Origin: Opitutia bacterium
GTDB taxonomy: Bacteria; Verrucomicrobiota; Verrucomicrobiia; Opitutales; Opitutaceae
Reading direction: 5' to 3'
Length of the DNA: 64,000 nt
Assembly: GCA_947452315.1 (NCBI GenBank)
Contig: CANGCX010000004.1
Span: 1-64,000, forward strand
The position numbers were made by a program, and so were the translations under genes. Under the pieces are notes generated by a model. The model was not told the DNA's origin. It did no database searches and was given only the letters and a program-made list of their open reading frames with translations. This document shows, one piece after another, positions 61,623 to 63,428 of this stretch. Each line of letters begins with the position of its first letter. Within the stretch, counting starts at the first letter, position 1.

Positions 61623-61760
61623 TTGACATCCTCCCGGTCTAAGCGGCTTGCGCCACTTTGACCGGGATTCCTGGCGAGCCGGACTCTGACCGGTCTCTCA
61701 GACGGGTTCGCGTTTTCGAGCGGGAGCGTCGCGGCGGTGTGGCCTTTGACGTATTCCCGG
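61623..61760 (-). ncRNA. Predicted omega RNA (reRNA) of tnpB
   Basis: In this family the guide RNA of TnpB covers the tnpB 3' end and the right end, and its guide is the flank past the tip. Here the 3' part would hold the hairpin at 61633-61666 with a GCAA tetraloop at its apex. The guide would be TAGCTCTACGCGACTACGAA (61622-61603, minus strand), from the obg leader. The 5' boundary is not visible; 61760 is a rough estimate. Confidence 0.45.
61633..61666 (-). repeat. Right-end subterminal hairpin of the IS element
   Basis: On the minus strand CCCGGTC and GACCGGG form a 7-bp basal stem, one A-A mismatch follows, then AAGTGGC pairs with GCCGCTT (one T-G wobble) around a GCAA tetraloop. The tnpB TAG stop (61641-61639) lies within it. 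It is a likely TnpA binding site and omega-RNA element. Confidence 0.75.
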
Positions 61761-62919
61761 CGTAGTGGCGCGCAAGGGCGGCTTGTCCAGCCGCTTTGAT
61801 GTTCGTTGCCGCAATCCAGTCAGCGTTTCCCTCAAGTCCGCAGGCCACACATCGGAAGGCCGCTTGGTTTTCGCGGTTTTCCGGTGCGCAGTGATGACAC
61901 TGCGGACAGTTTTGTGAGGTGAACGCTGGGTTAACCAGCAAGAAAGGGATACCTGCCCGCTCGCATTTGTAGGCGAGCATGGTCTTGAACCGACCAAACC
62001 CGCGAGCAAGCATCTCGCGATTCAAGCCTGACTTGGCCGCCACATTGCGGCCAGGTTCGGCCATCGTGCCTGCCGCCGAGGCGGTCATGGCCTTTAGGTT
62101 CAGGTCTTCAAGCACCACGAAGGCGTGCTGCGTAGCCAGTTGATGAGACGCCTTGTGTTGCTTGTCGCGCCGACGGTTGGCCATGCGCTTGTGCTGCTTC
62201 GCAACGCGAGCTTGGGCCCGCTTCCAACGGTTCGAGCCCTTGGTCTTGCGGGCTGCTAGGGCCTGCAGGACGGAGAGTTTGACCCAGTCCTCTGCGCTGG
62301 GCGCGCCGAGACTTAGCACGTCGCCATTGGAGAGCGTGAGATCCTGCGCGATGCCGGCGTCGGCCCCGACGCCCTCGTCGCCATAGTTCGGCAGGCGATA
62401 TTCACCCTCGCAGCAGAACGATATCGACCAGCGCCCCGCACCGTCGGTGCTGACGGTGACGTTTTTGATTTTACCAACGATTTCACGCGTCTTGTTGAAA
62501 CGGACCCAGCCGAACTTAGGCAGCTTAACCCAGTCTTGATCGACGCTAAACTGCTTGGGATCGGGAAACCGGAACGACCCGTGGCCGCCTTTTTGCCGGA
62601 ACTGCGGGTAGCCGGATCGGCCCTCGAAGAAGGCCGTAAAAGCCATATCGAGGTCACGCAACGTTTGCTGGAGCGTGTGAAAGGGGGCGTCCGCCAACCA
62701 CGGGTAGGACTGCTTCAGGCCGTCGAGTTGTGCCGACATAAACTCCGCGCCCATGTAATCGGTGCCGGTCGCGCCGGCCGACTTTGCGATCAGCCAAGCC
62801 TCTTGCCGGTACGCCAACGCCCAGTTCCATAACCACCGACACGCACCGGCCGTCCGACTACCCAGCCGCACCGCGGTGGTGGTCGGAAGCAACTGGAACT
62901 GGTAACCGGTAAGTGACAT
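61639..62919 (-). CDS. tnpB: RNA-guided endonuclease TnpB (IS605 OrfB)
   Basis: 426 residues, a typical TnpB length. The split RuvC nuclease has D187 in GVGADAGIAQ, E271 in VVLEDLNLKAM and D367 in GNADWIAATNI. Between the last two is a zinc ribbon with cysteines at 338, 341, 357 and 360 (NCPQCHHC, FRCVACG). An N-terminal OrfB/helix-turn-helix-like domain covers about 1-150. All catalytic residues are present and the frame is intact, so the protein is probably active with its omega RNA. It is divergent from tnpA, with 36 AT-rich bases between the two start codons. Confidence 0.95.
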   Translation of the reverse strand: MSLTGYQFQLLPTTTAVRLGSRTAGACRWLWNWALAYRQEAWLIAKSAGATGTDYMGAEFMSAQLDGLKQSYPWLADAPFHTLQQTLRDLDMAFTAFFEGRSGYPQFRQKGGHGSFRFPDPKQFSVDQDWVKLPKFGWVRFNKTREIVGKIKNVTVSTDGAGRWSISFCCEGEYRLPNYGDEGVGADAGIAQDLTLSNGDVLSLGAPSAEDWVKLSVLQALAARKTKGSNRWKRAQARVAKQHKRMANRRRDKQHKASHQLATQHAFVVLEDLNLKAMTASAAGTMAEPGRNVAAKSGLNREMLARGFGRFKTMLAYKCERAGIPFLLVNPAFTSQNCPQCHHCAPENRENQAAFRCVACGLEGNADWIAATNIKAAGQAALARHYAGNTSKATPPRRSRSKTRTRLRDRSESGSPGIPVKVAQAA

Positions 62920-62955
62920 CTTGCGTTAAGACCAATATAGTTTAGTCTTTTCAAT

Positions 62956-63393
62956 ATGTCAAATGATGTTCGGCACGGAAGAAGTGTCATTTATTCACTC
63001 ACGGTCCATTTAGTCTTTGTAACCAAATACCGCCGGGGCGTAATCACGGACCGCGTCCGCGAACACCTGCGGGGCTCGATCGATGGAGTGTGCCAAAAAA
63101 TGGGGGCAAAGTTACTAGAGTTCGATGGCGAGGATGACCACGTCCACCTCTTGGTGGAGTACCCTCCAAAACTGGCCGTTTCCCGACTCGTGAATTCGCT
63201 CAAACTCGTATCCGCTCGTTTGCTCCGTAAGCGCGACTTCCCCGAAGTTCGGCGCAAACTCTGGGGCGATCACTTCTGGACTCCATCCTACTTCGCTGGA
63301 TCCACTGGCGGAGCCAACCTCGCGACCGTTAAACGGTATATTCAGCAGCAGCGCGTTTCCGCTCCTGCCCGGCCGGCGCTTGACCCGGCCTAA
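62956..63393 (+). CDS. tnpA: IS200-type Y1 transposase TnpA
   Basis: 145 residues. The HUH metal motif is DHVHLLVEYP (HVH at 62-64), and the nucleophilic Tyr is Y128 in TVKRYIQQQ. YSLTVHLVFVTKYRRGVI near the N-terminus is the family's first conserved strand. The protein is intact, so the element could be mobile. Its TAA stop (63391-63393) lies inside the left-end hairpin. Confidence 0.95.
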   Translation: MSNDVRHGRSVIYSLTVHLVFVTKYRRGVITDRVREHLRGSIDGVCQKMGAKLLEFDGEDDHVHLLVEYPPKLAVSRLVNSLKLVSARLLRKRDFPEVRRKLWGDHFWTPSYFAGSTGGANLATVKRYIQQQRVSAPARPALDPA

Positions 63394-63410
63394 GCTTCGC
63401 TTTGGCCAGG
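63384..63410 (-). repeat. Left-end subterminal hairpin of the IS element
   Basis: On the minus strand CCTGGCC and GGCCGGG form a 7-bp basal stem (one T-G wobble), one A-A mismatch follows, then AAGC pairs with GCTT around a GAA loop. The plan matches the right-end hairpin. The left tip is 16 bases further out at 63427. Confidence 0.75.
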
Positions 63411-63428
63411 TTTGCGCGCCGTCATTGA

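Follow-up and report, generated by a model that had tools for sequence, protein, structure and literature searches.

A complete IS200/IS605-family element with divergent genes, inserted 3' of TTGAT between ftsZ and obg of an Opitutia bacterium

In the Opitutia bacterium assembly GCA_947452315.1, a complete IS200/IS605 insertion sequence of 1805 bp (positions 61623..63427) lies between ftsZ and obg; the window referred to throughout is the whole stretch analyzed, the first 64,000 nucleotides of contig CANGCX010000004.1. We hold with high confidence that this locus is a complete IS200/IS605-family element with divergent genes, inserted immediately 3' of a TTGAT that includes the stop codon of ftsZ. 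It is an ordinary addition to a well-known class of mobile elements, and it has apparently been active in recent time. An earlier note on this DNA had described a complete element with readable ends at this place, and those ends are now set by comparison, through empty sites in sister species, and not by analogy. The flanking genes ftsZ and obg are both on the minus strand, which we take to be the transposed strand. The features are as follows.

61623..63427, minus strand (left end 63427, right end 61623): whole element, delimited by empty sites in congeners and by copies elsewhere with identical ends.
63428..63432, minus strand: target and left cleavage site TTGAT, read in the sequence and present at 6/6 sites.
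63411..63414, minus strand: left guide CAAA, adjoining the foot of the left hairpin on the 5' side, positioned as in IS608 and covarying with the target in relatives.
63384..63410, minus strand: left subterminal hairpin, from the sequence and a DNA fold in the full left-end context (z = -2.9).
62956..63393, plus strand: tnpA, 145 aa, Y1 HUH transposase (Pfam Y1_Tnp, NCBIfam transpos_IS200, solved relatives).
61639..62919, minus strand: tnpB, 426 aa, putative RNA-guided nuclease by family (NCBIfam guided_TnpB, Pfam, alignments).
61667..61670, minus strand: right guide GAAT, read in the sequence, identical to the IS608 right guide and conserved in relatives.
61633..61666, minus strand: right subterminal hairpin, from a DNA fold (z = -5.8).
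61623..61626, minus strand: right cleavage site TCAA, read in the sequence, as in IS608, with six different right flanks directly after it.
61607..61622, minus strand: TAGCTCTACGCGACTA (obg leader), the 16 nt predicted by analogy with ISDra2 to serve as guide in the right-end RNA of TnpB.

The two genes are divergent with adjacent 5' ends, which is the IS605-type layout, and both are intact, as the earlier note had read them: the frames are open and the catalytic residues are present. TnpA matched Pfam Y1_Tnp (4.8e-43) and scored above the cut-off of NCBIfam transpos_IS200; its HUH motif is H62-V-H64, with the catalytic Y128 and, four residues on, Q132. Solved structures related to TnpA include the IS608 transposase, and its nearest named relatives belong to Opitutae and Opitutaceae; a plasmid search gave only partial, tnpA-level matches. 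TnpB scored 266.6 bits against NCBIfam guided_TnpB (cut-off, 100) and is related to the solved ISDra2 TnpB (8bf8; 1.7e-30). Its RuvC triad, D187, E271, and D367, lines up with the corresponding residues of solved TnpBs, and four zinc-finger cysteines are present. By family membership, TnpB is a predicted RNA-guided nuclease. The fold of the predicted right-end RNA had a z score of -2.6 over 184 nt, and an Rfam search of the element returned nothing at E <= 1, which leaves this RNA without a family match.

Terminal inverted repeats are absent, and subterminal hairpins are found at both ends of the transposed strand in the sequence and in DNA folds. Read on the minus strand, the left flank CCCTTTGAT is followed by the element tip CAATGACGG, and the right end GGATGTCAA is followed by the flank TAGC; the overall order is CAATGACGGCGCG-CAAA-hairpin ... 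CCAG-GAAT-hairpin-AGGATG-TCAA and then the flank TAGCTCTACGCG. The common plan proposed earlier for the two ends, a 7-bp stem, an A.A mismatch, and an apical stem, can be read directly in the sequence. The left hairpin consists of the stem CCTGGCC/GGCCGGG (with one T.G pair), the mismatch, and a 4-bp apical stem, AAGC-GAA-GCTT, with a GAA loop; in a 51-nt fragment starting at its foot, a competing fold wins. The right hairpin consists of the stem CCCGGTC/GACCGGG, the mismatch, and a 7-bp apical stem, AAGTGGC-GCAA-GCCGCTT, with a GCAA loop, and none of 200 shuffles was as stable. The stop codons had also been placed inside the hairpins. This holds for both genes of the window element (tnpA stop TAA, 63391-63393, in the left hairpin; tnpB stop TAG, 61639-61641, in the right hairpin), and for tnpB it is common among relatives, but for tnpA it fails as a general rule, the stop lying just outside the hairpin in L058, a second family member in the same genome. 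The left ends that were read show an A.A mismatch plus apical stem only in this lineage, in its four copies (window, L054, L058, and L063), and in most relatives the left hairpin is a plain stem-loop of about 20 nt with a 7- to 8-bp stem and no A.A mismatch. Judged from these sequences, the mismatched form is a minor, lineage-specific hairpin variant.

The target TTGAT, which overlaps the ftsZ stop codon TGA, stands exactly at the left boundary in 6/6 distinct insertion sites from three genomes, among them those of the window copy, of G002:C78 and G012:C162 in two congeners, and of G000:C48 elsewhere in the own genome. Since TTGAT occurs only 1.0 to 1.4 times per kb per strand here (about once per kb in the window), its presence at all six sites indicates that the boundaries are not chance. 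The first bases after the six right ends are T, C, G, G, A, and C, and the element itself begins with C. Thus, the tips proposed in the earlier note, a left tip directly after TTGAT on the tnpB strand and a right tip ending in TCAA, are both read in the sequence, the former in the same way at six sites and the latter adjoined by six unlike flanks.

The genus is represented by 13 genomes, own genome included, and 12 of them gave an obg match. Seven congeners have ftsZ and obg next to each other with no element at that point, and the eighth aligned sequence (L048) has a longer ftsZ-obg spacer of its own. No element-free strain of the same species turned up, and the empty site given for this genome, TTGAT joined to TAGC, therefore represents flanks joined in silico; the congeners differ around the junction. 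This implied site, CCCTTTGAT joined to TAGCTCTACGCG, aligns with CCCTCTGAT joined to TAGCGCTCTGCGG of G002. Two further sites, known from G012 flanks, are uninterrupted in other congeners, in which GACGTTTGAT (three genomes) and GCGATTGAT (two genomes) stand directly before the flank. At all three loci the empty site reads TTGAT followed by the flank with no duplicated bases, i.e., insertion occurred without target duplication. The L054 site, whose spacer is not alignable in congeners, and L155, whose flank starts in variable sequence, gave no clean empty junction. The prediction that an empty site would join TTGAT directly to the obg leader was thus borne out by the implied TTGAT-TAGC junction, which matches seven congeners, and by the two other sites; homologous copies were also checked for differing ends, and the same ends were found. 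The last ~40 bp before the obg ATG (about 61563-61602, minus strand), AAGACCCCCCTTGGCAAAGG-GGAA-CATCTGCATCGTG, are almost invariant among congeners, and the neighboring spacer is not alignable. This stretch may be a leader, a promoter, or a small structured element; the insertion lies just upstream of it and leaves it intact.

A copy in G002, at a different place, is 99.06% identical over 1811 bp, whereas the ftsZ-obg regions of the two genomes are 86.6% identical; the spread is therefore recent, and recent horizontal spread would best explain the G002 copy. In G012 a 99-bp right end recurs without any difference on at least three contigs, each time next to another flank. Contigs C13, C105, and C141 of G012 all break off precisely 99 bp into that right end, and such breaks are a sign of several identical copies collapsed in short-read assembly. 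The own genome holds a second, more distant member (G000:C48; TnpA 77% and TnpB 55% identical) whose tip, TTGAT-CAATGACGG, and end, GGTCAA, match those of the window element. A sister group in the same genus (L055, L057, L059, and L060, at G002:C88, G009:C36, G000:C168, and G002:C127) has TTAC with the guide AAAG, which is the IS608 left code.

These copies bear on two other accounts of the locus. A decayed, immobile remnant fixed at this place in the lineage would fit the single copy of the exact element seen in the own genome, which is 84% complete; yet neither reading frame is interrupted, the catalytic residues are retained, the 99% identical copy occupies another site in G002, the three G012 contigs share identical right ends, and the element is absent from the ftsZ-obg site in sister species. 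We consider a remnant very unlikely. We give next to no credence to a domesticated TnpB acting, for example, as an RNA-guided regulator of the neighboring obg: its predicted guide does equal the obg leader, but this must hold for any element at this place, the RuvC triad, tnpA, and the two ends have all been preserved, and the 99% identical copy, inserted at an unrelated locus, has a different guide.

Relatives of the element were collected as 80 bacterial genome loci (L066-L145) with TnpA 52 to 73% identical; their tnpB, where found, is on the strand opposite to tnpA. Left target/guide pairs, scored by a fixed rule at 73 loci (from the 80 homologous loci plus copies in the genus), were TTAT/AAAA (27), TTGAT/CAAA (21), TTAC/AAAG (7), TTGAC/CAAG (3), TTCAT/GAAA (2), TTCAC/GAAG (1), and others (12). 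Several of the 12 others are misplaced hairpins, automatic placement having missed the foot in L079, L085, L084, L087, and more; by eye the misplaced loci read TTGAT/CAAA or TTAT/AAAA, yet the statistics keep their original scoring. Of 70 distinct left ends, 62 have a target and a guide whose last bases can pair (10,000 shuffles: mean, 43.8; maximum, 55), and in 64 the first base of the guide agrees with the target class (10,000 shuffles: mean, 30.9; maximum, 44), both counts being inflated by relatedness. The right end GGAAT...GGANGTCAA was present at 52 of the 80 loci, which include loci cut off before the right end, and at none of the controls. Pairing of the guides with the cleavage sites, as predicted here, is supported for GAAT/TCAA by identity with IS608 and for CAAA/TTGAT by the covariation in relatives.

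Across the relatives, the right code GAAT/TCAA is conserved while the left target and guide switch; an ISDra2 target together with an IS608 right site is therefore what this clade usually shows. We considered reading the element as an ISDra2-IS608 chimera and rejected this, as the relatives combine the fixed right code with many left codes. In three actinomycetotal loci (L131, L134, and L133), which read TTCAT/GAAA and TTCAC/GAAG, a C at the third target base goes with a G in the guide and mirrors TTGAT/CAAA. Two neighboring copies, L139 and L141 (Aromatoleum plasmid pU120), have CTGAC in place of TTGAC before a CAAG guide, so that the first target base departs.

The target might instead be set by the TnpA protein itself, with no base pairing by the left guide and CAAA incidental. 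Target classes do cluster on the TnpA tree, as such a protein-set target would have it; however, about 20 changes of target are needed on that tree, which is poorly resolved, has target labels read by eye from left ends, and is illustrative. Moreover, the covariation exceeds all 10,000 shuffles, even though relatedness inflates the counts, and the close pair L085 (TTGAT/CAAA) and L096 (TTGAC/CAAG), with TnpA 95% and TnpB 87% identical, differ in target with the guide in step. We regard target choice by TnpA without guide pairing as extremely improbable. The relatives document how target and guide have changed in concert in nature, and they support target choice by base pairing beyond the two well-studied elements. 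A broader reading, which we put forward as doubtful, is that the left target of the clade is set by a small two-position DNA code, the first and last guide bases, and that this code has switched often, even among almost identical transposases, with the right end remaining fixed. If this were true, TnpB, which is expected to read the target as its TAM through protein contacts, would need retuning at every switch or would lag. That guides set the target is already known; the new part would be the natural frequency of switching and how TnpB keeps register, and close pairs such as L085/L096 can be used to examine how TnpB follows a target change.

By analogy with IS608 and ISDra2, TnpA would bind both hairpins on single-stranded DNA, and the guides CAAA and GAAT would pick the cut sites TTGAT and TCAA. 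The excised element would form a single-strand circle and insert next to another TTGAT, on its 3' side. The re-sealed TTGAT-TAGCTCTACGCGACTA site might then be cut by TnpB loaded with a right-end RNA that takes its final ~16 nt from the obg leader, and such a cut could lead to the element being copied back.

Among known systems, the element resembles IS608 (ISHp608) of Helicobacter pylori in its sequence-related Y1 TnpA, in an identical right guide GAAT and right site TCAA, in the position of a guide just 5' of each hairpin, and in tips without inverted repeats. The IS608 code is CL TTAC, GL AAAG, CR TCAA, and GR GAAT (PMC5934647); the window element, with TTGAT/CAAA, divergent genes, and hairpins in which an apical stem follows an A.A mismatch, is thus not IS608 itself; the earlier note had set this mismatch against the bulged T that it gives as typical of IS608 hairpins. 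With ISDra2 of Deinococcus radiodurans it shares the TTGAT target (PMC2806898, PMC8612924) and a related TnpB; publications confirm what the earlier note had stated, TTGAT as the ISDra2 target and TCAA as the IS608 right site. In ISDra2, however, tnpA and tnpB partially overlap in one direction (PMC8612924), whereas the genes here are divergent, so that the element is not ISDra2 either. ISDra2 also prefers a G after TTGAT (PMC5934647), unlike the window element, which starts with C and whose six right flanks start with the mixed bases given above. The IS605 elements of Halanaerobium hydrogeniformans, whose tnpA copies are reported as mostly degraded (PMC7290912), likewise have divergent tnpA and tnpB, hairpins at both ends, a left end downstream of tnpA, and a right end downstream of tnpB, but their end sequences differ. 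The 80 relatives share the opposite-strand tnpB and the GGAAT-hairpin-GGANGTCAA right end, and many have TTGAT/CAAA; unlike the window element, they vary in left code (TTAT, TTAC, TTGAC, TTCAT, and TTCAC), and their left hairpins are mostly simple.
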